Source of the DNA: a virus
Virus record (IMG/VR): IMGVR_UViG_3300025138_000423
Span: 1 to 22,097 of that record
Strand: one strand, 5' to 3'
Length of the DNA stretch: 22,097 nt
A program made the translations under genes and the position numbers. Of the stretch, positions 140-13,971 are shown piece after piece (position 1 is the first letter of the stretch; every line of letters begins with the position of its first letter). Below the pieces are notes generated by a model. It searched no databases. It worked only from the letters and a program-made list of their open reading frames with translations, and was not told the DNA's origin.

Positions 140-577
140 ATGGTCAATAAAGTCATGTTGATTGGTAACTTAACCAAGCCAGCAGAAATCAAAAACACGT
201 CAACTGGCGGAGTAGTAGCTCTGTTAAATTTAGCAACAAACGAATCTTGGGTAGATAAAACTTCCGGAGAAAAGAAGTCCAAGGCTGAATACCACCGCAT
301 AACAATTTTTAATCGTCTCGCGGAAGTTGTACAAAAATTAGACCTCGATACAGGTACTCAATTGTACATAGAAGGACAGCTTACTCACCGAGACTATGTT
401 GCCGCAAACGGTGAAAAGAAATACGTGACTGAGGTAAAGCTTGGCGGCTTTGGTTCTGAGCTAAAGATTTTATCTAAGAAAGTTAATACTCAAGCTCCAG
501 CTCAACAAATTGCTGATGCTCCAGCTTCTATTACCCCGGTTGCATCTGAGGAGTTTGACGATGACATCCCATTTTAA
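140..577 (+). CDS. ssb: Single-stranded DNA-binding protein
   Basis: This protein coats single-stranded DNA during phage replication and recombination and recruits partners through its C-terminal tip. The 145-residue product has the OB-fold typical of bacterial SSBs: the opening MVNKVMLIGNLTKPAEIK, an aromatic/basic stretch around residues 35-60 (ESWVDK, YHRITIFNRLAE), and LYIEGQLTHRDY at 76-86 (family: LxVEGxLxxRxW). A flexible Ala/Gln/Pro linker (about 115-135) leads to the acidic tip DDDIPF, the classic SSB protein-interaction tail. The start has an AAGGAG site 5 nt upstream. An ATG at 135 is followed directly by TAA and is not a start. It is the first complete gene of the plus-strand operon and overlaps the next gene by 17 nt. 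Confidence 0.96.
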   Translation: MVNKVMLIGNLTKPAEIKNTSTGGVVALLNLATNESWVDKTSGEKKSKAEYHRITIFNRLAEVVQKLDLDTGTQLYIEGQLTHRDYVAANGEKKYVTEVKLGGFGSELKILSKKVNTQAPAQQIADAPASITPVASEEFDDDIPF

Positions 578-758
578 AATAATTGTATTAGCGCTATTGT
601 TATCAGGCTGTAGTGCATTGCAAGATAAGCATGATTCATTATTAATACCACCGAACGTGATAGATGATGACCAGCTTATTTGTACGAGCGAAATCATGAG
701 CAACTGCGCTGGTTTCTTAACCCAAAAAGATATAGATAAGGAGAATGACAATGACTAA
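561..758 (+). CDS. Small outer-membrane-type lipoprotein
   Basis: The 65-residue product has a lysine-containing N-terminus, a hydrophobic core (IIVLALLL) and a clean lipobox LLSGC with Cys17 as the predicted lipidated residue. Ser at +2 favours sorting to the outer membrane. The mature part is only about 49 residues, is acidic towards its end and has two more cysteines. The open frame extends up to 510, but ATG 561 is preferred: GAGGAG lies 7 nt upstream and the signal peptide begins there. It overlaps the ssb 3' end by 17 nt and its TAA overlaps the next ATG. An Rz1-like outer-membrane spanin is possible by size, but it is not proline-rich and no partner spanin is adjacent, so the role is unknown. 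Confidence 0.75.
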   Translation: MTSHFKIIVLALLLSGCSALQDKHDSLLIPPNVIDDDQLICTSEIMSNCAGFLTQKDIDKENDND

Positions 759-1569: not shown

Positions 1570-2871
1570 TTAAACAACACCTTTTATGTTTCTTCTTAAA
1601 GGTTTATCCCAAGCTTCATTGTAAGGTGTGTACCCAATAGCAAGATACCTCATCGAGTCTGCCGCATGTGAACTCCAATCGTGCTTTGGTCTCATTCTCC
1701 ACGTCTTACCATTGTCATCCCAATCTCTTGAGTAATTTAACATAGCATCTATTAATTTTTCACACTTAACTTCGTCAAAATAACATCTGTCCAACAGCTC
1801 TCTAACTTTTTGAATGCCATCATCTATAAGTAATGAAGGTGCTATTTCAATATCTCTAATTCCTAAACCTTCTAATGTTTCAATACGACTCTTACCTGTA
1901 CCCAATTCTCTAACTCTAACGTCATGTGGAAATACATGCTGGTCGTAAACGTACCCTTTGTCTTGTAACACCTTAGCGTAATGCTCTAGTCCAGCACCTG
2001 ATGCTTCATAATAGTCAATGATGTGAATTTCAGTACCAATAAATTGTGAGAAAACGATTGACGTGCTGTCGCCTACCCCTAAATCCCAACTTGTTACTAC
2101 TCCTTTAGCTCTGTCATATCTTACTGTACCAATTCTGTCTTCGTCTTTAGCTCTTCTCATTTCAGAGCTGTAATAACTTCCCTCTGAGTAAACTAAAAAT
2201 CCACCTTCCCAAATGTGTTCGTACATATCCGGACGTTTCTTTTTGTCTTCTATGCGTTGGTCATCAAGAACTTTTGGAAACCAAGGATTGTCTGTGTAAT
2301 TTAACTTAACTATTTTACAATTGCTAGGAAAGTTAGCTCTAAATCTTTCATGCGTTGCAGAATATTTTGACTCCGGATTCCATGTCACCCAAATCTCTGA
2401 AGAAAATCCAATACTAAGGTCTTCTTCTCGTATAGATGGTAGTAGCACATCCCATGCTCTTCCGCTTACATTCTCTGCTTCATCTACCCAAGCTAATAAG
2501 ATACGAGACTTAGATTTAATTGAGTCTAGTGAACGTCTTAGACCAGCAAAAGTGTACGTAATTCGTCCATCCTTACTTTTAATGTACTTGTCACCTAACT
2601 CATAATAATCTTCTAGCCAAGGTACTGAACGTATAGCCGCTTTAATTTCTTCTAAAGATGACTCAGTTAATGAGTTCATAAACTCACGACCACAAAGTAT
2701 TGTACCGGATACACCTGAGCTACCCCAGCGATAGCCAAAGACAGCACTCATTAGTGCAAATGAACGAGTCTTGCCTGAACCTCTAGAACCATAGCTGGCT
2801 CTAATTCTTGCCTCGCCTTCAAATATTGGTACTAATTTAGGTGGTAACTCAATCTGTGCAATTTCACTCAA
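1570..2871 (-). CDS. terL: Terminase large subunit (packaging ATPase/nuclease)
   Basis: This motor pumps DNA into the prohead and cuts it. The 433-residue product has Walker A GSRGSGKT at 28-35, Walker B ILLAWVDE at 124-131 with catalytic Asp130/Glu131, and coupling motif TWNP at 163-166. The RNase H-like nuclease has acidic residues in SWDLG (Asp263), HDVR (Asp317) and HAADSMRY (Asp405). This is a complete PBSX/Terminase_3-type layout. The start is TTG: an in-frame TGA lies two codons upstream and the first ATG would remove Walker A, so no other start keeps the ATPase. The TTG overlaps the upstream TGA as TTGA, with a weak GGA 7 nt before it. It is the last gene of the late operon and meets the plus-strand operon with no gap. 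Confidence 0.96.
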   Translation of the reverse strand: MSEIAQIELPPKLVPIFEGEARIRASYGSRGSGKTRSFALMSAVFGYRWGSSGVSGTILCGREFMNSLTESSLEEIKAAIRSVPWLEDYYELGDKYIKSKDGRITYTFAGLRRSLDSIKSKSRILLAWVDEAENVSGRAWDVLLPSIREEDLSIGFSSEIWVTWNPESKYSATHERFRANFPSNCKIVKLNYTDNPWFPKVLDDQRIEDKKKRPDMYEHIWEGGFLVYSEGSYYSSEMRRAKDEDRIGTVRYDRAKGVVTSWDLGVGDSTSIVFSQFIGTEIHIIDYYEASGAGLEHYAKVLQDKGYVYDQHVFPHDVRVRELGTGKSRIETLEGLGIRDIEIAPSLLIDDGIQKVRELLDRCYFDEVKCEKLIDAMLNYSRDWDDNGKTWRMRPKHDWSSHAADSMRYLAIGYTPYNEAWDKPLRRNIKGVV

Positions 2872-3368
2872 GAGTCATTCCATTGTACGTTGCGTTTGCG
2901 ATGACCGTTCCAAGCTAACCAGCCACCTAATCTAAGTGCGTAGTACGCTAGGTAATTAATCAGTTTAAATCCGTTAACATCTACACAAATGTCTCTAAAG
3001 AGCATATCTGCCCATTTTTGAGTCTTTTTCTCTGTAGCACCCTTCTTGCCACCTAACTTGAGAACTTCAAATTTATACACATAGTCGTGTACGAGACCAC
3101 CACTCAAGAGGACACCCATAGGTGAGAGCCAACTTCTTAATGGTTTAGGTACTGAAGCGCCATCAAAGATAAATCCTTTAGGAATGACGTAATACGTTGG
3201 ATGTGTGTTACCATCATGTGTTATGTGAAATTTCCAATCTTTAGTAATCTCCCACGTTCTAGTCTTAGTGAGCCATAAGATAATTCCTCCTACAAAACCT
3301 TTGGATTTAGTTTCCATAGGTACTGGCATCATGTGTGGCATCTCTTGGTATTCAATTTTTACTGGCAT
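2868..3368 (-). CDS. DUF1353 family protein
   Basis: The 166-residue product carries the DUF1353 signature: IPKGFIFDGASVP at 62-74, HDYVY at 94-98 and a helical ADMLFRDICVD stretch at 120-130. The family is widespread in phages and often lies near lysis or late structural genes, but its biochemical role is not established. The conserved His-Asp and Asp residues look like a possible metal or catalytic site, which is inference. A hydrophobic segment around 24-33 is short and probably not a signal peptide. AAGGAGA lies 5 nt before the ATG. Its TGA overlaps the TTG start of terL, so terL is probably translated by coupling. Confidence 0.8.
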   Translation of the reverse strand: MPVKIEYQEMPHMMPVPMETKSKGFVGGIILWLTKTRTWEITKDWKFHITHDGNTHPTYYVIPKGFIFDGASVPKPLRSWLSPMGVLLSGGLVHDYVYKFEVLKLGGKKGATEKKTQKWADMLFRDICVDVNGFKLINYLAYYALRLGGWLAWNGHRKRNVQWNDS

Positions 3369-3379
3369 ATCTTCTCCTT

Positions 3380-3820
3380 TTATTTGCCTTTGGCGAGCTG
3401 TGCGCCGAAATAGAACTCAATAATCATGGTTGCCCATCCGAATAGTTCATCCATTTTGACTACTGAACCAGCTTGTACAGTTATGTATTCGACTACATCC
3501 GGGGTAAGTTGAAACAAACCTAAAAAGTTTAAACCCTCTTTAGTTGTTGGTATAACCATTTCTGCATTAAAAACGACTGGTGCTACTTGCGTAAAAATTA
3601 CAAGCGCTAAAATTACAAGAATAATTATTCGCCTGTTCCAAGCCGCCATAGGTGATTCTTTGTCTGCCGCCGCTCTTGCTTGATTAATAGAATCATTGCG
3701 AGCTTGCATGTTCTCTATCATTAGTTTCTGTTGTTCTTGAGCCGCTTGACTCTTCAAAGCAAATAACTTACCAAGAAAGCCTAGTGCTATTGGTGCTATG
3801 TTTGCTAAAAAACTAATCAT
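3380..3820 (-). CDS. Holin-like membrane protein (GTA/3TM type)
   Basis: The 146-residue product has a hydrophobic N-terminal helix (about 3-22), a charged Gln/Glu/Arg-rich linker (24-62), a strong transmembrane segment at 64-84 (RIIILVILALVIFTQVAPVVF) and a third hydrophobic C-terminal segment (127-142, ending GAQLAKGK). The order ESPMAAWNRR, span, FxWxxxxxxFYFGxxxAKG resembles the 3TM holin family found in gene-transfer agents and marine phages. The role would be inner-membrane lesion formation at lysis. There is no endolysin in the window to confirm a lysis cassette. Its ATG overlaps the upstream TGA (ATGA). Confidence 0.65.
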   Translation of the reverse strand: MISFLANIAPIALGFLGKLFALKSQAAQEQQKLMIENMQARNDSINQARAAADKESPMAAWNRRIIILVILALVIFTQVAPVVFNAEMVIPTTKEGLNFLGLFQLTPDVVEYITVQAGSVVKMDELFGWATMIIEFYFGAQLAKGK

Positions 3821-4005
3821 ATAAGTTTCATCAGTAGTTCACCAATTCCTATATCAGTTGCTACCATAACAGCAAAACCAATTAACAATCCTTTACCCAT
3901 AGACATAAATTTAAGATTCATATTCTTAATTTCTCTAACGTCTTTATAAAGGTCAGCAATCTGCTTCTCGTGTTTATCGAGTTGTTTTTGTTGTAGTGCA
4001 GTCAT
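3817..4005 (-). CDS. Small coiled-coil plus transmembrane protein
   Basis: The 62-residue product starts with a charged amphipathic helix (residues 4-28, QKQLDKHEKQIADLYKDVRE) and ends with one transmembrane segment (38-60). This layout resembles XhlA/hemolysin-like lysis accessory proteins and small holin partners. No family can be assigned with confidence. Its ATG overlaps the stop of the 13-codon micro-ORF (TAATG), and its TGA overlaps the ATG of the holin candidate. All three are probably translated as a coupled series. Confidence 0.65.
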   Translation of the reverse strand: MTALQQKQLDKHEKQIADLYKDVREIKNMNLKFMSMGKGLLIGFAVMVATDIGIGELLMKLI

Positions 4006-4062: not shown

Positions 4063-4539
4063 TCAGTTGTTTAATGGATTGTCTAATGACTGTTGTATTC
4101 GTTTCATTAGTTTTTCTTCTGTAGCATCTAGCTGTATGTCAAATTTATCAAGCTTATTATCCATCGTAGTAATACGTACATCAATAGACTGAAGCTTAGT
4201 GTCAATTCTATTTTCAAGATTATAACTAGACGTTCTAAGCCTAGCAAGGTCTTCCTTTAGCTCTACTTTAATCTCTTTGGCTACTTCTTCTACCCGGAGT
4301 ACGTCAGCAGAGGTCTTCTTCATCTGAGAACTTATAGCTCCAAGGTCTAATGAAGCTAAGGACTCTACCTTCTGATACATTAAGAACCCTCCATAAAGCG
4401 TTCCTAGAATACTGCCAAGCAAGGCAAACGCACCTACTAACTGCGTATAGGTAAATCTAAGGCTACCAATCTTAATCCTCTTATCGACTAAGCCTTCTAT
4501 CTTTGCTACCTTGTCACCTAAATCAGTTGTCAAATCCAT
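4063..4539 (-). CDS. Membrane-anchored coiled-coil protein
   Basis: The product has a short soluble N-terminus, one transmembrane segment at about 34-55 (LVGAFALLGSILGTLYGGFLMY) and a long heptad-patterned C-terminal half (about 65-150, VEEVAKEIKVELKEDLARL and NRIDTKLQSIDVRITTMDNKL). This is an inner-membrane anchor with an extended coiled coil, a layout shared by i-spanins and some holin-associated proteins. The given ATG has AGGAG directly against it with no spacing. A TTG two codons later (4533-4531) has GGAG at 6 nt and matches the ATAGGAGAT leaders of neighbouring genes, so TTG may be the true start and remove two residues. The 5' end overlaps the preceding gene by 17 nt. Confidence 0.7.
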   Translation of the reverse strand: MDLTTDLGDKVAKIEGLVDKRIKIGSLRFTYTQLVGAFALLGSILGTLYGGFLMYQKVESLASLDLGAISSQMKKTSADVLRVEEVAKEIKVELKEDLARLRTSSYNLENRIDTKLQSIDVRITTMDNKLDKFDIQLDATEEKLMKRIQQSLDNPLNN

Positions 4540-4948
4540 CTCCTATCTGCATAGATTTTAACAGTTCTATCTCTGCGCGCAACTTTTCTACCTCTAGTCT
4601 GCGTCTTTGTAGTTCAAGTTGGTACAGGGTATTACAATTAATTCGTTCTTTTGGAGCGTCTAATGGCACAATTATGCGTGCATAAATTCCAAAATCTTTA
4701 GTCTGTGGATTGTTTTTATCATCTGTACTAAACAAAGAAGTAGCGTTATTTACTATCCCAGTTAAACCTAATTCAAAATTTGTGCTTCCGCCAATAGAAT
4801 TTTGGCAGTCTAAATCACCAGCTTTAATACTGTCTGTACCATAACCAACTCCAGCACTAGGCAATGCTAGATTAAGAGATGTGCTATTAGCCATTGATTG
4901 TGTGCAAAGAACAGCTAATAACAAACATCTTATTTGAATTTTGAGCAT
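4523..4948 (-). CDS. Exported protein with C-terminal coiled coil (cassette gene 5)
   Basis: The 141-residue product opens with a Sec signal peptide (basic MLKIQIR, hydrophobic CLLLAVLC, cleavage likely near SMA|NS). The mature part has a Gly/Ser-rich region (31-55), a DFGIYARIIVPLDAP segment at 85-99 and a charged C-terminal helix with heptad character (LELQRRRLEVEKLRAEIELL at 111-130). Cys48 and Cys105 could form a disulphide in the periplasm. I do not recognise a named family. It is the last of five consecutive exported-protein genes and overlaps its upstream neighbour by 19 nt. It may be a periplasmic or surface scaffold component, which is inference. Confidence 0.7.
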   Translation of the reverse strand: MLKIQIRCLLLAVLCTQSMANSTSLNLALPSAGVGYGTDSIKAGDLDCQNSIGGSTNFELGLTGIVNNATSLFSTDDKNNPQTKDFGIYARIIVPLDAPKERINCNTLYQLELQRRRLEVEKLRAEIELLKSMQIGDGFDN

Positions 4949-5304
4949 ATTCTAGTTGCTAACAAAGTCTTACTCTCATCGTTACTCCTTAATTTAGACA
5001 AAGAACAAACGTATCTAGCTTCTACTATGTCTTTTTCTCTTATGTAAATATCAAAATTAACTTTACTTAAATAATTAAGTTTAATAATCTTATAAGCTGT
5101 TACAAATGGTATTGGTTTCCACTCACCATCAAATACACCAACCTCATAATAACCTACATCCTCTCTAGAGTTCCACAACTCCATGGTTGTTTTCTTTACA
5201 CCTTGTACCGAACTAATCTGCCACTTCGGATAGGTCGGTGTCATCTCATGACTATATACTGTGTAATTAAACAGTAATAAACATATCCCTATTGAGCGAT
5301 ACAT
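4930..5304 (-). CDS. Exported Ig-fold protein resembling a pilus chaperone (PapD-like N domain)
   Basis: The 124-residue product has a signal peptide (MYRSIGICLLLFNYTVYSHE). The mature part follows the strand pattern of a PapD-type N-terminal domain: a Pro-containing opening (TPTYPKW), a T-T-M-E-L-W-N strand at 39-45, YYEVGVFD at 52-59, WKPIPF at 62-67, KIIKLNYLSKVNFDIYI at 72-88 (where chaperones have P..L.PG....v.i) and RYVCSLSKL at 97-105. It is about half the length of a two-domain chaperone, so the second domain is missing. Cys100 and Cys120 may pair. It sits directly after a pilin-like gene and overlaps it by 16 nt. No usher gene is present. Confidence 0.65.
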   Translation of the reverse strand: MYRSIGICLLLFNYTVYSHEMTPTYPKWQISSVQGVKKTTMELWNSREDVGYYEVGVFDGEWKPIPFVTAYKIIKLNYLSKVNFDIYIREKDIVEARYVCSLSKLRSNDESKTLLATRICSKFK

Positions 5305-5792
5305 TCAGCTAATACTACTGCTTTATATGCGCCGCCCGGAAAAGCTTTAGCTTGACCACCACCATAAGTTGCAACCGATGTAGCTTTTATCCATAAAGTG
5401 CCGGCGTGAGCCAAAGCGTAATTTCGCATCGAGCCACTTGTTGTACTAGCCGCCTGATACCCACTTTGGTCAGAAGAACTCATTTGTGCTACAGCAACAG
5501 TACCTACCCAGCTAACGGTGTCTGACAATGATGGACTTGAAGTAAATGCTGTAGGATAACTAACTTGCGCGTGATAAGCATTAGCAAGAGTTACATCAAA
5601 TCTTACGATAGGGTCAACTCCTGAACTAGCCGGCGCAGTCGTAAGTGTGTGAGCATTTGGGTTTCCGTACGCACCCGGAGTATCCATATTCACGGTGCAT
5701 CTGCTCTGTACCGTTCCAGTAATGTCAATATTTTCTGCCAAGATTGGCGTTGCACTAAGTATTAAGCTAAGTGTTATTAATAGTTTCTTCAT
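5289..5792 (-). CDS. Exported pilin-like / spore-coat-U-like protein
   Basis: The 167-residue product has a textbook signal peptide ending LILSATPILA|EN. The mature chain starts IDITGTVQSRCTV and ends GGAYKAVVLAECIAQ, with Cys32 and Cys164 placed as in pilin-type Ig domains, where N- and C-terminal strands are disulphide-linked. Between them are alternating beta-strand segments (PIVRFDVTLANAYHAQVSYP at 61-80). The overall pattern suggests a DUF4402/spore-coat-U-like or classical pilin-like beta-sandwich. GAGGAG lies 9 nt before the ATG, which overlaps the upstream TGA (ATGA). Its neighbour downstream looks like a pilus chaperone. It might form a surface structure or act as a secreted decoy, which is inference. 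Confidence 0.65.
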   Translation of the reverse strand: MKKLLITLSLILSATPILAENIDITGTVQSRCTVNMDTPGAYGNPNAHTLTTAPASSGVDPIVRFDVTLANAYHAQVSYPTAFTSSPSLSDTVSWVGTVAVAQMSSSDQSGYQAASTTSGSMRNYALAHAGTLWIKATSVATYGGGQAKAFPGGAYKAVVLAECIAQ

Positions 5793-6670
5793 TTGTATTG
5801 CTCCTCTATCATTTCATTCATTAAATTATCTTGCGCCAAGCTCCTTAATGCTCTCCTATTATCCACGATATTACCACCTTGTAAAACGACAGACTCGGTA
5901 ATGTAACTATCAGGAATTTTTGCTACGTAATATGTGCCAATGTTTGTAGCACTATTTATTGAATTTAATATAACAGATTGCGCTACTTGATTAGCCATAG
6001 TCAATGCGTTAGTTGTACTAGCTAATGCAAACTCTAGGTCAGCGTCTTTATCTTCTTCATCTTCGTCATCTCTGTTTTCTTCATCATCTTCTAACAGTTC
6101 TCTGTCTGTTTCTTCTTGAGCTAACTGAACAGATTCATCTTCTAATGCATCATAATTAGGAATTTCAGGTACAGGCGGTGGTTTAGGTTTTACGTAGCCG
6201 GGGCAATTAGGGTCGCTTTGTGGGTTAAAACAACTATCAAAACGGTACAGATAAATGACTGAGACATCTTCTATTGTGCCTTGTCCAGTCTTTTTAACGT
6301 AGCCATCACCAAATACTGCAAGTGGTGTATATGGCATAGGCAAAACTTTTTTAATCTTACCACCGTACTTTTGTGACCAGTCTTCTATGTCTTCAAATAC
6401 TGTACCACCACCAACTTTAGAGTTACCAATAGTAACTACTAGGTCATCACTTAAATTTTTAACAGCTTCATAAGAATACAAAACACCTGATACGTCCATA
6501 CCACCAATACCATGCTCACCTAATGCACTAGGGTTCATGCCCCACGTCATACCATTTATAGCGGCGTTTGGTGTGCTTCCGTATATGTAGCTAGAAGAAT
6601 AAGAAGGCTGATGCAACAGCACCCATAAGCTTAATAGCGCTATCCCTCTTTTCCACAGTAGTCTTTTCAT
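5789..6670 (-). CDS. Exported acidic protein with Pro-rich linker (cassette gene 2)
   Basis: The frame is open from 6736, but ATG 6670 is chosen: GGAGG lies 6 nt before it, and it begins a signal peptide (MKRLLWKRGIALLSLWVLL, cleavage near SYS|SS). The 293-residue product then has an N-terminal globular part (to about 155) with a C-x8-C pair (Cys147, Cys156), a proline-rich linker (KPKPPPVPEIP, 161-171), a strongly acidic stretch at about 177-213 dominated by Asp and Glu, and a C-terminal helical/beta domain. I do not recognise the family. The first 80 nt overlap the preceding exported-protein gene, so the two are inherited and translated together. Confidence 0.7.
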   Translation of the reverse strand: MKRLLWKRGIALLSLWVLLHQPSYSSSYIYGSTPNAAINGMTWGMNPSALGEHGIGGMDVSGVLYSYEAVKNLSDDLVVTIGNSKVGGGTVFEDIEDWSQKYGGKIKKVLPMPYTPLAVFGDGYVKKTGQGTIEDVSVIYLYRFDSCFNPQSDPNCPGYVKPKPPPVPEIPNYDALEDESVQLAQEETDRELLEDDEENRDDEDEEDKDADLEFALASTTNALTMANQVAQSVILNSINSATNIGTYYVAKIPDSYITESVVLQGGNIVDNRRALRSLAQDNLMNEMIEEQYK

Positions 6671-7163
6671 GTTGTTCCTCCGGCATTGGTATTTCTTCAG
6701 TACGTACAGCCCATGCACGTTTAGCGGCATCGCCAATTAAGCCATCTATAGGGCAATAAGTTCCGGCGTTAGCCATGGCTTTAAAAATCGCTGGGTCTTG
6801 ACAGAGCAAAGATACGCTGGCTACCTTCATACCAGCCGAATAGAGCATTCTTGCCTTTTTTAACAGCAAACAATTTGCCTCTGTGTATGTAGCTCCTAGG
6901 CTCAAGGATAGTATCTGTGTACCTAAAGCTCCGCTAGATGAGATAGTACATAGGTCTGAATTATTTCCGCCTACATTAGGAGATATGGCGCTTGGCGGTG
7001 CAGATTTTACTGTCGTAGTTTGATTTCCGTTCGTTGTCACAGTAGAGTTTGTTGTTTGCTCTACTTTAGTTGTTTCAGCCATAGCTGAGAAAGACAATAT
7101 AAGGAAACAAGCTACTATGCCAAAGGCTATTGCGTTGTTAATTTTACTTTGCATAATCATCAT
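6591..7163 (-). CDS. Exported four-cysteine protein (cassette gene 1)
   Basis: The 190-residue product has a signal peptide ending FSAMA|E at about residue 29, a Thr/Asn-rich linker (31-70) and a cysteine-containing domain with Cys72, Cys98, Cys121 and Cys137, spaced to form two disulphides in the periplasm. Within it are CLLLKKARMLYSAGMKVASV at 98-117 and GTYCPIDGLIGD at 134-145. A hydrophobic end (GAVASAFLFF) could be membrane-associated. Start choice is uncertain among ATGs at 7163, 7160 and 7154; none has a strong ribosome site, which fits coupling to the upstream oxygenase gene that it overlaps by 20 nt. The family is not recognised by name. Confidence 0.7.
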   Translation of the reverse strand: MMIMQSKINNAIAFGIVACFLILSFSAMAETTKVEQTTNSTVTTNGNQTTTVKSAPPSAISPNVGGNNSDLCTISSSGALGTQILSLSLGATYTEANCLLLKKARMLYSAGMKVASVSLLCQDPAIFKAMANAGTYCPIDGLIGDAAKRAWAVRTEEIPMPEEQHEKTTVEKRDSAIKLMGAVASAFLFF

Positions 7164-7779
7164 AAATATCGTTAAAATTCCACCATCCAGTTACAATCAT
7201 TTTTTCTGATTTTTTACTTATTTGACCAACATGTGGATGTGTAAAGTATGCAGGCCAAATTAGCGTTAACCCTTTTATACAAGGTGTTGTAATAGCTTGT
7301 TGTGGAAATTTTGTGCCACCATCTTCTACATCATTTAAATATGTCATAAAAACTAAATGTCTATGTATTGTTGTAACAGAACCTGAATTTTCATGGTGTA
7401 ATATTTTATATCCTCCATTCTTTGGATACCATTGTACATTGTATTTACCTTTAATGCTAAATGGAAATGTGTGACCTGATGATGGATAATGTTTTACATA
7501 ATCTTCTAAACATTTTTGTAACAAATATTCGTACTCAAACCATGGTTCTGTTTTATTGTGTGGATATATTGCTTTTTCAATTGATTCTTTTGTTTTTTTA
7601 AGAACACGAAAATCTTTTGCATGTTTAGCCTGACTTGGAAAAATTCTGCCCGGATGTTTATGGTGTTGTAAAGTAGGGTCATGCCAATCTTCCCAAATAC
7701 TATCTATTAATTTTTCAGGGAAAATCCATCCACCTATGTGGGTATTATCAGGCATCATAAACCGTTTAACATCTTTCAT
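7144..7779 (-). CDS. 2-oxoglutarate/Fe(II)-dependent oxygenase (prolyl-4-hydroxylase-like)
   Basis: This enzyme class uses Fe(II), O2 and 2-oxoglutarate to hydroxylate proteins, nucleic acids or small molecules. The 211-residue product has the C-terminal double-stranded beta-helix: NVQWYPKNGGYKILHHENS at 114-132, with His128-x-Glu130 as the likely HxE iron ligands, RHLVFMTYLND (140-150), GGTKFP (154-159), and distal His183 followed by Lys193 as the 2OG-carboxylate ligand in place of the usual Arg. Glu instead of Asp in the HxD motif is a known variant. GGGAG precedes the ATG, which overlaps the sulfotransferase stop (ATGA). The substrate is unknown; proline or asparagine side chains of tail or exported proteins are possible. 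Confidence 0.85.
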   Translation of the reverse strand: MKDVKRFMMPDNTHIGGWIFPEKLIDSIWEDWHDPTLQHHKHPGRIFPSQAKHAKDFRVLKKTKESIEKAIYPHNKTEPWFEYEYLLQKCLEDYVKHYPSSGHTFPFSIKGKYNVQWYPKNGGYKILHHENSGSVTTIHRHLVFMTYLNDVEDGGTKFPQQAITTPCIKGLTLIWPAYFTHPHVGQISKKSEKMIVTGWWNFNDIYDDYAK

Positions 7780-8531
7780 AAATTAAGCTCCCTATCTTTA
7801 TATTTATTAATTATGTCTTCGTTTAAATAATCTTCAATATTTGTTTTTGTTTTACTAATACCATTTGTTCTTATTGTGTGTAAAGGCTCATTTAATACTG
7901 AATCGTCATAACACATACCATTAATATTAAATTGTGATAAATTATCTAAATCTACATTAAAAGTATCTTCACCTATAAAAGTAAATATTTTATTAACTAC
8001 GTCTTGAGGATTTTTAACAAACTGGTCATATGTAATAATAAGACACTCTTCGCCTGATGCAAGAGCATTTTCAATACTGTGAAGTGATAAACCTAGTAAA
8101 CCATCATTTGCCATGAAGTGAGAAGTAACTACGTCTACAAATGGATTTTTTTGTGATTTAACATATGATGCTAGACATTCTAAAACAGGACGATACAAGA
8201 TTACAAATTTAGGTTTTTTTACAATTTTTTTTAAAGCGGATAAATTTCCTATTGAACCCCAACAACCTCTATCAATAATTTTTGATTTTTTGTAGCTTTT
8301 GTAATAATTTTTAAAAACATTTTTAGTAATGTTGTCAAATGCTTTGTGGTCAGGAAAATTTGTAAAATATGGATTGTAATGTTTTATATTGTTTAAATTA
8401 TAAATTACGTCCATTAAAACAGAATTAGCCGATAATGCTACATTAGGACTTTGATTAATAAGTGAACCTAATACAGTATTACCAGCTCTAGGAACACCTA
8501 AAAGAAAGTAAAACTCTTTTGATTTATTCAT
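7776..8531 (-). CDS. PAPS-dependent sulfotransferase
   Basis: The 251-residue product transfers sulfate from PAPS to a hydroxyl or amine acceptor. It begins with the 5'-phosphosulfate-binding loop FYFLLGVPRAGNTVLGSLI (loop at 12-20, equivalent to PxSGTTxL) and has the 3'-phosphate-binding segment FVILYRPVLECLASYVK at 109-125 with Arg114 and Ser122. This is the Sulfotransfer_3-like layout. The acceptor may be a surface sugar, lipid or Tyr on a phage protein. The gene is clearly AT-richer than the structural genes. A ribosome site AGGAGG lies in the loop of a small hairpin immediately before ATG. It is coupled by ATGA to the oxygenase gene. Confidence 0.88.
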   Translation of the reverse strand: MNKSKEFYFLLGVPRAGNTVLGSLINQSPNVALSANSVLMDVIYNLNNIKHYNPYFTNFPDHKAFDNITKNVFKNYYKSYKKSKIIDRGCWGSIGNLSALKKIVKKPKFVILYRPVLECLASYVKSQKNPFVDVVTSHFMANDGLLGLSLHSIENALASGEECLIITYDQFVKNPQDVVNKIFTFIGEDTFNVDLDNLSQFNINGMCYDDSVLNEPLHTIRTNGISKTKTNIEDYLNEDIINKYKDRELNL

Positions 8532-8547
8532 TCTCCCTCCTGAGAAT
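8530..8547 (-). promoter_or_regulatory. Ribosome-site hairpin of the sulfotransferase gene
   Basis: In the minus-strand mRNA, AUUCUC and GAGAAU pair over 6 bp around the 6-nt loop AGGAGG. The loop is exactly the Shine-Dalgarno core and the 3' arm contains the first two bases of the start codon. The stem is AT-rich and short, so it may be only marginally stable. Confidence 0.45.
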
Positions 8548-8558
8548 AATTAAATTAT

Positions 8559-8936
8559 TTAACTGTTAGCAACCCACCCTGTTGTGTTGTCTGCTTGATA
8601 TGCTGATTCATCCCAATAATAATAAGGAAAAGTTTCTACATCTGCTGGTTCGGCTAAAGGAGCTTCCCATTCACCTGTTGCATCTACTAATGTCCAACTT
8701 GCAAAAGGTTTTGGAGCAATAAACATTTCTTTTGCCGCATCATATGTATCTCCAATGTGTGCATATCTATTGTGTAAATTACCGTTGTAACTAGTTTTTA
8801 TCCAACTATCACCACCCCAACCATTTAATAACCATGTAATTGTACCAGCTTCTCCTTTAGCATCTTCAACATCATTATCGACAACATTAATGTCTGTAAC
8901 TAAATTGTCAGAGTCTAATTTTGCATAATGTGCCAT
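8559..8936 (-). CDS. Small conserved tail-cluster protein
   Basis: The 125-residue product begins MAHYAKLDSDNLVTDINVVD and contains W-I-K-T-S-Y-N-G-N at 45-53, YAHIGDTYD at 58-66 and IAPKPFASWTLVD at 73-85, followed by EWEAP. This order (MAHFAxLdxxNxV, W.QTSYNGN.R..YAGIG, PPKPFpSWxl, WeAP) is familiar from cyanophage and other marine phage proteins lying beside tail fibre genes. Its molecular role is not established; it is probably a minor tail or fibre-associated protein. ATAGGAGAT precedes the ATG with 6-nt spacing. It lies between the glycine-rich protein and the sulfotransferase. Confidence 0.75.
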   Translation of the reverse strand: MAHYAKLDSDNLVTDINVVDNDVEDAKGEAGTITWLLNGWGGDSWIKTSYNGNLHNRYAHIGDTYDAAKEMFIAPKPFASWTLVDATGEWEAPLAEPADVETFPYYYWDESAYQADNTTGWVANS

Positions 8937-8945
8937 ATATATCTC

Positions 8946-9962
8946 CTATTGAAATTTGTATCTGAGAACTACAATACCTGAGCCACCGCTACCACCAGCA
9001 TTACCGCCTCCTTGACCACCTGAACCACCGCCGCCACCACCAGTATTTGCGCTACCTGAGCCAGCGTTACCAGCTCCACCTGAATTTGCACCACCTCCAG
9101 CGCCTCCTGAGCCTGAACCACCTCCAGCGCCACCACCAGCATAGTATCTGCTATCTTCGCCTGAACTTGTACCATTACCTAATGTTGTGTATTGTCTTCC
9201 AGCACCACCGTTACCATTTGAACTACCACCCGCTCCAGCACCACCTCCACCACCTTGTTGAGCGTTGTTACCACTACCACCACTATTTCCGTAGCCTGTT
9301 GCACCACCTGAGTTTCCTTGAGTTCCTGAACCGCCTGAACCAAAATTAGAACCACCACCACCACCGCCTGAACCACCATTAGCTGGGGCATTTCCACCAT
9401 CAGAAGCCGCACCAGTATAAGATTTACCACCACCGCCTCCTACAGCAGTAGAGCCATGAAATACAGAGTTTGCTCCTTGATTTCCACCTGAATTACCATG
9501 CGCCCCAGTAGTATTACTACCGCCACCACCAATAGTTACAGAGTAGTTTGTATTTGCATCAATTGTTTTACCTGAATGATAAAGTAAACCACCAGCACCA
9601 CCACCACCACCGTGTCTACCAGCACCGCCACCAGCTCCAGCAACGACTATATATTCAACTGAGTTACTTCCAGCAGAGTTACCGCCAGCCGCTACAGCAA
9701 ATGTTCCGTTACCAGTAAATTTAACATATTTATAATCACCTGAAGTTGCTATTGTGCCACCACTTGCCACCATAAATGTTGCGTTTTCTGTACCGTAAAA
9801 GTCACTCATTAAGATTTGACCTGAAGCTGGTATATCAGTTGCAGAAGATGGAACATTATCTCCACCCCTATAATATTCACTTAAAGATATAGGGTTAGAG
9901 CCACCAAATTCTGTTTGTAGTTCACTAAATTGTAGGTCATCACCTGACGATTGTATTGCCAT
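8946..9962 (-). CDS. Glycine-rich tail fibre tip / adhesin-like protein
   Basis: The 338-residue product has an N-terminal module of about 60 residues (MAIQSSGDDLQFSELQTEFG and SLSEYYRGG) common at the front of marine phage tail proteins. A beta segment (YVKFTGNGTFAV) and VEYIVVAGAGGGAG follow, then a very long Gly/Ser/Asn-rich region (about 110-328), ending GGSGIVVLRYKFQ. Polyglycine-helix bundles of this type form receptor-binding domains in T-even gp38 adhesins, so host recognition is the likely role. Gly codon use is mixed, so the tracts are kept by protein selection rather than being a simple microsatellite. Its ATG overlaps the stop of the fibre gene (TAATG). Confidence 0.85.
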   Translation of the reverse strand: MAIQSSGDDLQFSELQTEFGGSNPISLSEYYRGGDNVPSSATDIPASGQILMSDFYGTENATFMVASGGTIATSGDYKYVKFTGNGTFAVAAGGNSAGSNSVEYIVVAGAGGGAGRHGGGGGAGGLLYHSGKTIDANTNYSVTIGGGGSNTTGAHGNSGGNQGANSVFHGSTAVGGGGGKSYTGAASDGGNAPANGGSGGGGGGSNFGSGGSGTQGNSGGATGYGNSGGSGNNAQQGGGGGAGAGGSSNGNGGAGRQYTTLGNGTSSGEDSRYYAGGGAGGGSGSGGAGGGANSGGAGNAGSGSANTGGGGGGSGGQGGGNAGGSGGSGIVVLRYKFQ

Positions 9963-11623
9963 TATTTTTTCTCCAGTTTCTCTACTTTCGCAGTAAGCTC
10001 CTTGATAGATTCAATTAGCAATGCGTGTAGGTTGTCGTAGTTTAGTGTCTTAAACAATTGTTTGTTACCTGTATGAAGTGGAAGTTCTCTTTCCTGTACT
10101 GCACATGGTAATACCTTTTCAACATCTTGAGCAAGTAAACCAGCAGACTCCATTCCATCTTTAAGGTATTTGTAAGTTACACCTTTAAGAGTATTAATCT
10201 TGTCTAGGGCATGGTCAATAGGATTAATGTCATACTTTAGCGTTTCATCAGATATAGTAGATGAGAAAGCAACTATGTCACCATCAACGTGTAAAGCACC
10301 AGCATCTGTAAGTCTCATATCTTCTGCGTTAGCTGAATAAAAACGTATTCCTACGTCAGCATCATAATGAATATAATCATGTCCGTTACCATCATAAATA
10401 TCTGTAGTTGCACTTGAACTACGTCTGTCAACAGCTAACTTAGCACCTGAAACTTGTAAGTCACCTAAATGTGCTGTGTCAATAGAGCCATCTGTGTAAT
10501 GTTCTGAGTCTACCGCATTATCAGCAAGGTTATCTCCATCAACTGCATCTCCAGCTAAGTGAACATGGTCTACACTTCCATCTGTTATATGTTCTGAGTT
10601 AATAGCATCATCAGCAATTTTAGCACCTGTTACTGCATCTGCCGCAATCTCTGCTGTTCCCACCGCATTGTCTGCTAAGTGTTCATTGTCAATACTAGCC
10701 GCCGCATAATGTTCACTATTTAAGACGTTATCACCAATCTTTGCCGCAGTTACTGAATCAGCACCTAAAGCGGTAGCATCTACTGCACCAGCCGCAATGT
10801 GAGCTGAAGTTACTGAATCGTCAATAATAGCATCTGTGTTTACAGAGTTTGGTGCTAAATGTTCCGCATCAATACTGTCTGCGGCAATGTGTTCACTATT
10901 AATAACGTCATCACCGATTTTCGCGGCAGTTACTGCATCTGCGCCAATTTTAGCGGCAGTTACAGCTCCATCATTAATTTTTGCAGTTTCAACCGCAGAA
11001 GCGGCTATAGAAGCTGTATCAACTAAAACCCAATCTAAAACTCCTGAACCATTTGTAAGTAGCACCTCATTTGCATCACCATCATTATTAGGAAATGTTA
11101 GCGTGTAACTAGCATTAGCTGAATGTGGTGGACTCTTTAATTTAATACCATGTGAGTTTTGTGAACAGTTTAATTGGATATAACCATCCTGTGAGCTACC
11201 ATCACCTTTAGCTTCTACAGAAGGAACACTAGAAGTTGAGATTAGGTTTAATTTAGCAACTGTAACTGCATCATCATTAATCTTAGCAGTTTCAACCGCA
11301 GAAGCGGCTATCTCTGCTGTATCTACAGCATTGTCTGCAAGGCGAGCATTTGTCACCCAGTTATTAGCTGTAATAGCGTTAAGCTGTGTCTGAATGGCAC
11401 TTGTCACACCATCAGTATAATTTAGCTCTGCGGCAGTTGCAGTTACTGCTGTGCCACCCACTTTAAATTGTCCAGCAGTTAAGTTAGGTTTTATGGCAGT
11501 TGTGCCATCTAATAAATCATCTATCTTGTCTAAACCAGCGTTTAGTTTTGTTCCCCAAGTGTCGGCTGAAGCACCCACTTCAGGCTTCACAATGGAAAAA
11601 GTAGTTGTAGTTGTATCAGCCAT
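9962..11623 (-). CDS. Tail fibre with decapeptide repeats and C-terminal S74 intramolecular chaperone
   Basis: The 553-residue product is a trimeric fibre-type protein. The N-terminal part (1-90, TTTTFSIVKPEVGASADTWG, GTAVTATAAELNYTDGVTS) is common in marine phage tail proteins and probably attaches to the virion. Three decapeptide repeats (93-125) are interrupted by a non-repetitive insert (126-202), then about 20 more run from 203 to 398. A globular segment follows (399-450), then the S74/endosialidase chaperone domain (about 453-553): SDETLKYDINPI, LDKINTLKGVTYKYL, AGLLAQDVEKVLP, LNYDNLHALLIESIKEL and a terminal coiled coil. In this family the chaperone folds the trimer and cleaves itself off before the Ser of the SDExLK motif. 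GGAG precedes the ATG. Its TAA overlaps the glycine-rich protein ATG. Confidence 0.93.
   Translation of the reverse strand: MADTTTTTFSIVKPEVGASADTWGTKLNAGLDKIDDLLDGTTAIKPNLTAGQFKVGGTAVTATAAELNYTDGVTSAIQTQLNAITANNWVTNARLADNAVDTAEIAASAVETAKINDDAVTVAKLNLISTSSVPSVEAKGDGSSQDGYIQLNCSQNSHGIKLKSPPHSANASYTLTFPNNDGDANEVLLTNGSGVLDWVLVDTASIAASAVETAKINDGAVTAAKIGADAVTAAKIGDDVINSEHIAADSIDAEHLAPNSVNTDAIIDDSVTSAHIAAGAVDATALGADSVTAAKIGDNVLNSEHYAAASIDNEHLADNAVGTAEIAADAVTGAKIADDAINSEHITDGSVDHVHLAGDAVDGDNLADNAVDSEHYTDGSIDTAHLGDLQVSGAKLAVDRRSSSATTDIYDGNGHDYIHYDADVGIRFYSANAEDMRLTDAGALHVDGDIVAFSSTISDETLKYDINPIDHALDKINTLKGVTYKYLKDGMESAGLLAQDVEKVLPCAVQERELPLHTGNKQLFKTLNYDNLHALLIESIKELTAKVEKLEKK
10430..11017 (-). repeat. 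Tandem 30-bp coding repeats of the tail fibre (about 20 copies)
   Basis: Residues 203-398 are built of 10-residue units of the form xAxIxxDAVx, for example TAKINDGAVT, AAKIGADAVT, SEHIAADSID and AEHLAPNSVN. The DNA copies are diverged but keep the 30-bp step throughout. Three more copies lie upstream in the gene (residues about 93-125), separated by a 77-residue insert. Such repeats are expected to form an extended beta-helical shaft. Confidence 0.8.
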
Positions 11624-11640
11624 GCTTTTTCTCCATTATT

Positions 11641-11931
11641 TTAAAAAGTTCCCTTCCATACTCTTAGCTTATCAAAATCTCCACTAAGTAATTTCTTTCG
11701 TACAATCTCTTTACGAGCATTTACATCGCTCCATTTGATTCCAGCATCTTTACACCATTCTTGCATTATGTGCATAGGAATAGAACCAACATAACGATTT
11801 TCCCCAGTCATACCAGCACCTGATTTGCGTATATCCTCAACCCGGTCTAGGTATCTCTGATTATCGTGTGTACTTTCAATAATAATCTTACCGTTTTTAT
11901 TATCAAAATGTACTTGTTCTTTTGTTTTCAT
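11641..11931 (-). CDS. Small conserved phage protein after the capsid gene
   Basis: The 96-residue product begins MKTKEQVHFDNKNGKIIIES and ends with SIPMHIMQEWCKDAGIKWSD (50-69), ARKEIVRKKLLSGDFDKLRVWKGTF. The C-terminal half looks like a conserved helical domain with a positively charged centre. I do not recognise a named family. Its position between the major capsid protein and the tail fibre suggests a minor structural or assembly role. AAGGG lies 7 nt before the ATG. It is the first gene after the capsid terminator and its stop is 17 nt before the fibre start. Confidence 0.7.
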   Translation of the reverse strand: MKTKEQVHFDNKNGKIIIESTHDNQRYLDRVEDIRKSGAGMTGENRYVGSIPMHIMQEWCKDAGIKWSDVNARKEIVRKKLLSGDFDKLRVWKGTF

Positions 11932-11943
11932 ATTTTACCCTTT

Positions 11944-11978
11944 AAAAGTGTGGGAAGTTAAGGAGGACTCCCCACACT
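11944..11978 (-). terminator. Hairpin terminator after the major capsid gene
   Basis: On the minus strand, AGTGTGGGGAGT pairs with ACTTCCCACACT over 12 bp with a single G-U wobble that would be an A-C mismatch on the plus strand, so the structure fits minus-strand RNA. The loop is CCUCCUUA. TTTT overlaps and follows the stem end (11947-11944). It lies 17 nt past the capsid stop codon. The T-run is short, so partial read-through into the tail genes is likely, which would make capsid mRNA more abundant than tail mRNA. Confidence 0.72.
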
Positions 11979-11994
11979 AATAGTTTACCTCAGA

Positions 11995-12954
11995 TTATGA
12001 AGTTGAGCAATCAGCTACTAAGCCTGAAGCTTTTTCATTTTTAGAGACTAACGTTAGCTCTGTCAAAACTTGACGAGTAGTGTTATCACCAGTCTTAGCA
12101 AGTTCTGTGTTCTTAGTAGGTCGTAGTACAGCTACTTCAAACATATCATTGTCAAGTATCCAAACATCTCTGCTTTGACATTCACGATGTGGTGTAAATT
12201 CTACTGTACCCCAAGGAGTAACGTAGACTTCTACCGACTTTATGATTGTCTGTCTATCAGCATCAATATGTGAACGTTGGTTATTGTAACCTGTGAAACC
12301 TAAAGCAATGTTCATTTGGAAAGAAGATAGGTAGACTGAATCAGGCGTACCACCATTTTCCCAAATAGACTGCATTACAGTATCAAAGTCAGCTTGAGTA
12401 AACGCTGTCTGAGTACCATTAGTTCTTGCAGTAGCTCCCGGAACTGTTCCAGTAGGGTTAGCACCACCTGAACCACCAATGTTTGCAACATTAGATTTCA
12501 TGTATGCGCCTAGACCAGCTAGTTCACGTGCCGCAGAAGCTGAACCAGCTTCATACTTATTGTTAGCAAACAAAGCTTTCTCAATGTCTAGCTTTTGCTC
12601 TTTAGCAATTTTAAGCACTTGATATGCCATCTCAGCAGAACGACCAGCTTTTTCTAGTCCTTCGTCTGTATCAGGAATAACTACTGCATTCTTAAAGATT
12701 TGCGTGTAGTTACCAAGTCGAACAGTAGCAACTCTAGCTTCCGCAGAAGTTGCGTCACCTTCAATATGAGCGTTAGCGGCTGAAGCACGTAGTGCATCTG
12801 TCTGCCACTCATGGTAAGTGTTAGTTGCTTTAGTTTTTTTCAGCGATGAGTAAAAAGGAGTTTCTTCAGGACTTATGTCATGAATAACATTAGATAAGTC
12901 TTCTCTAATACCTTTAACGTCATAACTGTCGAACGTATGTGCGGGTTGCGCCAT
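11995..12954 (-). CDS. Major capsid protein (SU10-like / DUF5309 family)
   Basis: The 319-residue product forms the icosahedral shell. It matches the SU10-type capsid family: MAQPAHTFDSYDVKGIREDL at the N-terminus, IHDISPEETPFYSSLKK (24-40), YHEWQTDALR (47-56), RLGNYTQIFKNAVVIPDT (79-96), YQVLKIAKEQKLDIEKALF and a C-terminal domain with DVWILDNDMFEVAVLRP near residue 260. The fold in this family is HK97-like. There is no N-terminal delta domain; the separate acidic gene just upstream serves as scaffold. GGAGAAA precedes the ATG. A terminator follows directly, as expected for the most abundant virion protein. Confidence 0.92.
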   Translation of the reverse strand: MAQPAHTFDSYDVKGIREDLSNVIHDISPEETPFYSSLKKTKATNTYHEWQTDALRASAANAHIEGDATSAEARVATVRLGNYTQIFKNAVVIPDTDEGLEKAGRSAEMAYQVLKIAKEQKLDIEKALFANNKYEAGSASAARELAGLGAYMKSNVANIGGSGGANPTGTVPGATARTNGTQTAFTQADFDTVMQSIWENGGTPDSVYLSSFQMNIALGFTGYNNQRSHIDADRQTIIKSVEVYVTPWGTVEFTPHRECQSRDVWILDNDMFEVAVLRPTKNTELAKTGDNTTRQVLTELTLVSKNEKASGLVADCSTS

Positions 12955-12966
12955 AATATTTCTCCA

Positions 12967-13971
12967 TTATGTATTTAAAATTAAGTTCACAGCATCATCT
13001 AGACTACCTGAACCCTTGAGTTTTGCCTTTTGGCGTTCACGAATTTTAGCATTTGGAGTAGCAGTTCTCTTAGCACCCGGTTTCATAACAGGTTTCGCAG
13101 ACTTAGTTTTTACCTGAGCTTTTGATTTGCCTGAAATTATGTCCTGATACCTCTGAGCGTCTAGCAAGACTTTAATAGCTCTTGCATCAGTTATATTTGA
13201 AATTTCATTATCGGTATAACCGTAATGATTTTTTCCAGTTGTAACCAAACGTTCCCTTAATTTGCCAGCTTTATTAGCATCAGCAAACGCTGGAATTTCC
13301 TTTTGAAGAATTTGCATTTGTTCTTGTAAATAAGCCTTATGTGCATTTTCTTGAGCCGCACTACTTTTCTGTGCAACTTGTTGAAGTTGTGCCATTTGGT
13401 TATTGTACGCCGCACTAGCTTCCTCAAATTCAATGTTCTTTTGCATGTACCCTATTGGGTCTGAATCGAACTCTGCTTTTGTTGGTTTCACCGGTGGAGC
13501 TTGCATACCATTCTGTTGGATTTGGTTATATAACTGAGCTATTTGCTCTCGTTCGTTGTTTAGAGCGGCATAGACTTGTTCAGCTTCTTTCTTTTGTGCT
13601 GACGCCTCTTGCATCCCTTTTTGGACGTACTCCTGTCCACTATAGCCTTGCTTTAAGTCCTCTAGAGTTACCTCACGCTCCTGTCCATCTACCTTGACAG
13701 TATGCATTGAAGGCTCACTAGGACTGGCGTCCTCTATTAGGTCATCGTCATCCTCAGCATCCGAAGCTTCAATTTCGACTTCTTCGTCTGTGTTATCATC
13801 ATCCAAGTCAATATCAGTATCTATATCAGTATCAGCAGACGTTTCTATATCATCTGTTATCTGAGGTTCTTCTGTTACATTTTCTTCTATTGTCTCTTCC
13901 GGAGCAATTAAGCTCGCAACAGCACTTTCTATAGTGCCATCCATTTGGTTTTCAGTCGTTGATTCACTCAC
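12967..13971 (-). CDS. Capsid scaffolding protein
   Basis: The 334-residue product has an extremely acidic N-terminus (about 22-85, Asp/Glu-rich), a short VKVDGQEREVTLEDLKQGY motif (93-111), long Gln/Glu/Ala-rich helices with coiled-coil character (about 112-235) and a basic C-terminus (about 280-320, many Lys and Arg). An acidic front, helical middle and basic tail that binds capsid protein is typical of phage scaffolds, and its place immediately before the capsid gene supports this. The HTVKVDGQ.. segment is common to scaffolds of marine podoviruses. The start overlaps the stop of the upstream small gene (ATGA). Confidence 0.85.
   Translation of the reverse strand: MSESTTENQMDGTIESAVASLIAPEETIEENVTEEPQITDDIETSADTDIDTDIDLDDDNTDEEVEIEASDAEDDDDLIEDASPSEPSMHTVKVDGQEREVTLEDLKQGYSGQEYVQKGMQEASAQKKEAEQVYAALNNEREQIAQLYNQIQQNGMQAPPVKPTKAEFDSDPIGYMQKNIEFEEASAAYNNQMAQLQQVAQKSSAAQENAHKAYLQEQMQILQKEIPAFADANKAGKLRERLVTTGKNHYGYTDNEISNITDARAIKVLLDAQRYQDIISGKSKAQVKTKSAKPVMKPGAKRTATPNAKIRERQKAKLKGSGSLDDAVNLILNT

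Follow-up and report, generated by a model that had tools for sequence, protein, structure and literature searches.

A conserved cassette of genes for five exported proteins, with a candidate pilin-chaperone pair, in unrelated marine phages

The exclusion protein Llp of phage T5 blocks the receptor from the periplasm (PMC9586334). Clusters of curli (type VIII secretion) genes have been published for phages, together with the idea that they serve to capture sibling cells, and aggregation, superinfection defence or lysis control have been proposed as their roles (PMC7029224, PMC9599517). No description of phage pilin/chaperone exclusion modules was found in our literature searches. Here we describe a cassette of five overlapping genes for exported proteins, named A1, B2, C3, D4 and E5 (genes 1 to 5), and a sixth gene, cc158, which usually follows them. 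The cassette was analyzed in a 22,097-base IMG/VR virus record (IMGVR_UViG_3300025138_000423), the whole of which is called the window below.

The cassette resembles the curli clusters of pelagiphages and of phage Melnitz in being a multi-gene exported cluster common to several phage families, but its proteins differ and CsgG (PF03783) was not found in any virus record carrying it; the metagenome-assembled genome that contains loci L043 and L044 has CsgG on other contigs. A curli-like module was rejected because the cassette phage records lack CsgG. Llp and Cor-type exclusion lipoproteins are, like the cassette products, small, exported, disulfide-bearing phage proteins, and some C3 members, as well as a small protein found near C3-D4-E5 in Vibrio phages, are predicted lipoproteins. 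However, each of the former systems is a single small early protein, whereas the cassette is a late multi-protein module, and the cassette proteins of the window have ordinary signal peptides and are not outer-membrane lipoproteins. With the chaperone-usher pili (FimA/FimC, CfaB, Caf1/Caf1M, CsuA/B-CsuC) the cassette shares, by predicted fold, a pilin-type subunit with a donor-strand-like N-terminus, encoded beside a PapD-type chaperone. It differs from them in having no usher, a one-domain instead of a two-domain chaperone, no Pfam match or profile homology, and the extra exported partners A1, B2 and E5. A true chaperone-usher pilus was rejected on account of the missing usher and the one-domain chaperone: by the tests made, the cassette is not a member of that family.

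The cassette is real, conserved and mobile; its pilin-chaperone core is credible, and it has a counterpart in bacteria. A block conserved in many unrelated marine phages, without a pilus export pore, points to an undescribed remodelling of the surface of cells that are about to burst.

The five genes overlap and are under purifying selection

The minus strand of the window carries the portal, major head protein, tail-fibre and terminase genes, and the plus strand the SSB gene. A preliminary description of this DNA had listed five consecutive minus-strand genes, and the open reading frames (ORFs) were confirmed at these positions: A1 at 6591-7163 (190 amino acids, four conserved cysteines and a hydrophobic C-terminal tail; phrog_20531, E 2.5e-13), B2 at 5789-6670 (293 amino acids, with a beta-rich N-terminal part, a proline stretch, an acidic linker and a conserved ...QYK end), C3 at 5289-5792 (167 amino acids, a pilin-type subunit by predicted fold; phrog_25895), D4 at 4930-5304 (124 amino acids, a single-domain PapD-type chaperone by predicted fold, with the pair Cys100-Cys120) and E5 at 4523-4948 (141 amino acids, two conserved cysteines and a C-terminal coiled-coil-like helix; phrog_37374, E 2.4e-9). 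Consecutive genes share 80, 4, 16 and 19 nt, as the 4 to 80 nt of the description had indicated. The sixth gene, cc158 (4063-4539, minus strand), encodes a membrane segment followed by a coiled coil and overlaps E5 by 17 nt.

The largest overlap (6591-6670) encodes both the tail of A1 and the signal peptide of B2. An overlap of 41-128 nt was present in 97 of the 102 loci scored, the same DNA coding for the hydrophobic tail of A1 and the signal peptide of B2. Purifying selection acts on all five genes (dN/dS 0.04-0.33). Contigs from other metagenomes (L002-L004) carry nearly identical cassettes, so the arrangement is not an assembly artefact. None of the five conserved exported proteins has a functionally named family: B2 has no named family at all and no match in 50,697 phage records, and searches of PDB sequences with all five profiles gave nothing meaningful.

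Order and strand are kept in unrelated phage backbones

There were 547 viral stretches matching the E5 profile and at least 590 matching the A1 profile; the best 80 of each were kept, and 147 non-redundant IMG/VR loci made up the sample. The queries were derived from the window and the sample therefore favours its relatives, but co-occurrence was not built into it, since each scan used one gene alone. All five genes were found in 104 of the 147 loci, with the same order and strand in 104/104, rather than as homologues scattered singly. The gene for cc158 came after E5 in 94 of these 104 full loci, and every B2 locus with 3 kb on both sides (49/49) contained all five genes and cc158. A cc158 homologue is also present in phage HTVC115P (E 2e-13).

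Pairwise divergences among the five proteins are correlated (r 0.80-0.91). Among 29 loci with long flanks, 215 of the 406 pairs have no flanking gene in common; loci L058 and L133, for example, share no flank while their cassettes are 60-76% identical. The carriers include phages of the window type (head protein phrog_1328), L058 (phrog_1357) and T4-like contigs with Gp23. The cassette thus sits in unrelated phage backbones, T4-like ones included, and, as had been proposed, it moves as one unit.

Three loci, L042, L043 and L044, originated from bacterial bins. Of these, L043 and L044 come from the bin Rhodobacteraceae bacterium Water_Bin34, in which nine matches to T4-type Gp23 and several cassette copies were observed. 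L043 and L044 were rejected as bacterial cassettes, L043 lying beside a tail-fibre gene and their bin holding those capsid gene matches; they look like phage contigs binned with bacteria, and the bin appears to contain many phage contigs.

The cassette proteins carry export signals

Signal peptides were called by a rule (positive n-region, hydrophobic core and -3/-1 cleavage site; not SignalP). All five cassette proteins of the window were positive, compared with a single one (a small lipoprotein ORF at 510-758) of the 23 other ORFs of the window that were tested. Within the families, positives numbered 104/118 for A1, 105/108 for B2, 115/117 for C3, 115/117 for D4 and 117/117 for E5, that is 88-100% of complete members, against 8% (76/950) of background ORFs. 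The Sec signal peptides that the preliminary description assigned to all five genes are therefore a property of most members of each family, and the five co-conserved genes encode proteins with export signals. The conserved cysteines are even-numbered in every exported part, as is expected of periplasmic proteins.

The cassette is probably under late control

The cassette of the window lies inside the late operon, where it had been placed before, and the larger sample likewise supports late expression. The T4-type late promoter TATAAATA, which we take to be such from what is established for T4-like phages, was found 12-83 nt ahead of A1 in 22 of 93 loci, where 0.4 were expected from its density there. 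It was never found within 150 nt before B2 or C3, and the window contains no such box. T4-type Gp23 is present in two of the 22 promoter contigs (L151, L178) and in the bin of L043 and L044; most of the 22 are fragmentary, and no Gp23 was detected in them. In ten loci the gene upstream of the cassette is on the opposite strand. Because the late promoter precedes A1, the cassette is a late unit of its own in the 22 loci.

C3 and D4 are likely a subunit and its chaperone

The AlphaFold model of D4 (pLDDT 82) is a seven-strand sandwich forming one domain of ~106 mature residues. Its best PDB fold matches by Foldseek were the chaperones DraB, FaeE, SfaE, SafB, PapD, FimC and Caf1M (E 1e-4 to 1e-3, TM ~0.6), together with major sperm protein domains, which have the same fold. 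The last two strands of the model carry Cys100 and Cys120, which is where Caf1M-type chaperones have their F1-G1 disulfide. The model supports the assignment of D4 as a single-domain PapD-type chaperone.

For C3 (pLDDT 91) the best PDB fold matches were pilins: CfaB, the PapG pilin domain, FimF, FimG and CsuA/B. A fold search of BFVD with C3 gave no clear match, and the predicted pilin-type subunit is more weakly supported than the chaperone. The mature N-terminus of C3 is unstructured in the model. In 35 members, positions 22-32 of this segment alternate strictly: position 22 is hydrophobic in 89%, and I24, G26, V/I28 and C32 are each present in 35/35, while the positions between are hydrophobic in 0-11%. 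This is the donor-strand pattern of pilins and the best single hint at a mechanism; the donor-strand-like glycine is not kept in Vibrio phage Brizo.

Since two separate fold searches found both partners of one system, coded side by side, C3 and D4 are likely a chaperone-subunit pair. The pilin-like and chaperone-like members named in the preliminary description were thus recovered at the level of fold and not at that of sequence, where Pfam and profile comparisons were negative. An apparent homology between C3 and the pilins of E. coli (75%) was rejected, since it came mostly from the signal peptide and dropped to 2% after trimming.

No usher (PF00577) was found in the window, in 22 cassette phage records, many virus records being fragments, or in Brizo. 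Since both the phage records and most bacterial carriers (see below) lack one, the pair must work without an usher or borrow one.

The cassette is composed of two parts

The five genes travel together, but genes 1-2 and genes 3-4-5 are two parts of a composite unit and also occur apart, and the unit usually includes the sixth gene. A1 was detected in 12 reference phages and occurs without C3-D4-E5 in pelagiphages, Roseobacter phages, freshwater phages and N4-like Achromobacter phages. Outside the cassette the position of B2, after A1, is usually taken by a larger gene. Homology of B2 with the gene after A1 in pelagiphages was not supported: the match was confined to a 13-residue tail, and the two are similar in layout only. 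In Roseobacter phage CRP-810, gp53 (L033, 4818-5573) is an A1-domain protein annotated as "OmpA family protein" and adjoins a lysozyme gene, an annotation and context hinting at an envelope role for A1.

The other part, the trio C3-D4-E5, was found without A1 and B2 in Vibrio phages: the T5-like Thalassavirus and Vipunavirus, 51E28.4 (in which D4 was assigned by position only), K251 and BP15. In Brizo, profiles built without this phage found C3 (1.4e-7), D4 (3.5e-7) and E5 (2e-13) side by side, and A1 is absent from the entire genome. The annotated starts of Brizo gp139 and gp140 (L029, 7645-8342) are too far downstream; upstream starts add signal peptides and yield the D4 and E5 homologues. 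Where it was read, the gene upstream of the Vibrio-phage trio is phrog_10818, a protein of ~800 amino acids that is fibre-like by sequence, in otherwise different genomes.

A small predicted lipoprotein (C..IDTDYA.Q...GGPIEEEVTT) is encoded after E5 in Vibrio phages (L205, 5112-5288; L206, 4314-4472; L029, 8293-8496). It is a possible fourth exported partner there.

The trio has probable bacterial chromosomal relatives

The E5 profile matched 9 of ~398 other genomes of the phylum of the Rhodobacteraceae bin (E 2e-4 to 6e-15); the C3 profile alone had no match in the same genomes. Small exported genes of the D4 and C3 types overlap or adjoin the bacterial E5, so that the same three kinds of exported protein are encoded together. 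The order is that of the phages, C3-D4-E5, in L222, L224 and L225, but D4-E5-C3 in L220, L221 and L223. Similarity to the phage proteins is weak: for C3 it reached 9e-7, in L224, with the Vibrio-phage profile and filters off, and for D4 the values of 0.01-0.07 are suggestive only, so that both assignments depend on where the genes lie, their size, the signal peptide and the cysteines. The trio proteins had no meaningful Pfam or NCBIfam match, and A1 and B2 were not found beside them where scanned. Neighbouring genes look like ordinary chromosomal genes, and no usher match was obtained in 5 of the 8 bacterial genomes carrying the trio. Because the trio also appears to exist as a chromosomal three-gene operon in bacteria and most of these carriers lack an usher, the phage trio most likely has a common origin with an undescribed envelope locus of bacteria that works independently of an usher.

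In L223, a gene at 8381-13729 encodes a 1783-amino-acid lipoprotein-like Ig-repeat protein with a weak metallopeptidase match. It follows another C3-like gene and is divergent from the D4-E5-C3 cluster.

Possible functions of the cassette

Taken as a whole, with receptor masking included, our best explanation is tentative: the cassette may be a phage module, expressed late and moving horizontally, by which the infected cell has its envelope remodelled. Its identity part we consider probable; masking of the receptor as its purpose has somewhat less than even support. Put more fully, and with similar reserve, the locus may be a previously undescribed usher-independent pilin-chaperone envelope system, in which a bacterial three-gene operon was captured by several unrelated tailed-phage lineages, joined to a second exported module, placed under late control and used to alter the surface of the dying host. 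D4 would hold C3 in the periplasm until docking; the partner to which C3 docks by strand donation would be C3 itself, E5 or an outer-membrane protein of the host. A1, B2 and cc158 could anchor the assembly across the periplasm. Late in infection the module would block or hide a surface receptor, sparing progeny from loss on infected cells and debris.

Masking on dying cells and debris is favoured because of the late timing, the linkage to fibre genes in Vibrio and window-type phages and the variable linkage to lysis genes. The trio has moved together with the fibre-like gene in unrelated Vibrio phages. T5 Llp is a precedent for receptor blocking by a phage protein in the periplasm (PMC9586334). 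Several observations weigh against this explanation. The fibre linkage was not seen in T4-like loci, and phrog_10818 has no assigned function. The pilin fold scores of C3 are weak (E 3e-3, TM ~0.4). No match to PapD_N or fimbrial Pfam families was found in 35 members each of C3 and D4, and profile comparison after removal of the signal peptide detected no homology of either to E. coli K-12 pilins or chaperones. Finally, exclusion proteins such as Llp are expressed early (PMC9586334), and the cassette late.

Two other explanations, each improbable though worth considering, make use of the same late timing or the same fold. The exported proteins and cc158 could together disrupt the outer membrane, as a complex acting in place of spanins or in support of them. 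About half of the loci have holin-like genes after the cassette, Brizo and pVp-1 have holin and M15 endolysin genes downstream, and cc158 has the layout of an inner-membrane spanin, with a very weak spanin match (E 0.23); no spanin-type partner lipoprotein was identified in the cassette. The preliminary description had set the cassette between the tail/enzyme region and a lysis-like group, which is correct for the window. Unlike spanin and lysis cassettes, however, it has no constant holin/endolysin linkage: the linkage exists in window-type phages, whereas several T4-like contigs, K251 and others have non-lysis neighbours. Moreover, the Vibrio phages have the trio without cc158, and the trio is present in bacterial chromosomes.

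Alternatively, and about as doubtful, C3 could polymerise by strand donation into a surface fibre through which infected cells adhere to one another or to new hosts; phage curli have been proposed to act in this way (PMC7029224, PMC9599517). The pilin-type fold and the donor-strand-like N-terminus of C3 would suit such a fibre, but the cassette phage records contain neither usher nor CsgG, Brizo likewise has no usher, and some C3 members look lipid-anchored. The lipobox present in 19 of the 117 C3 members fits an outer-membrane-tethered rather than a long-fibre product.

It is more unlikely still that C3 and D4 act as a dominant-negative inhibitor, capping or jamming a host pilus or a related assembly and so removing a pilus used by competing phages. 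A chaperone-subunit pair without its own usher could act in this manner, but an usher is missing from 5 of the 8 bacterial genomes with the trio as well, and the chaperone has a single domain. Incorporation of one or more of the five proteins into the virion, which the late-operon location beside tail genes might suggest, is very improbable, as the consistent Sec signal peptides route the proteins away from the compartment in which tailed phages are assembled and the trio exists outside phages.

Should the five proteins form a functioning complex in the envelope, the result would be a late exclusion or receptor-masking system of unusual complexity, or else a new use of donor-strand assembly without an usher, common to bacteria and phages. 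Trio-carrying Vibrio phages have been cultivated, and the question is therefore directly testable.

Neighbouring genes in the window

The tail-fibre gene (9962-11623, minus strand; tail fibre PHROGs) lies upstream of the cassette in the late operon; 30 full loci have a relative close to the cassette, upstream in most cases. The region that separates the cassette from the tail fibres includes a 2OG-Fe(II) oxygenase-like gene and a sulfotransferase-like gene (7144-8531, minus strand). The former overlaps A1 by 20 nt, and relatives of the two recur near the cassette in a minority of loci.

On the other side, two genes for holin-like membrane proteins (3817-4005 and 3380-3820, minus strand) are frequent but inconstant neighbours. 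Neither had a family match above the cut-off, and the family of the 3380-3820 gene is present in 46 of the 104 full loci. A DUF1353 protein is encoded at 2868-3368 (minus strand) and matches a PHROG labelled "tail assembly chaperone", a label that looks doubtful; its gene frequently comes after the holin-like genes.

On the early strand, the small predicted lipoprotein gene at 510-758 (plus strand) overlaps the SSB gene, and its start is probably the internal ATG of MTSHFKIIVLALLLSGC. The gene is kept beside SSB in related loci and could encode an exclusion lipoprotein or an o-spanin.

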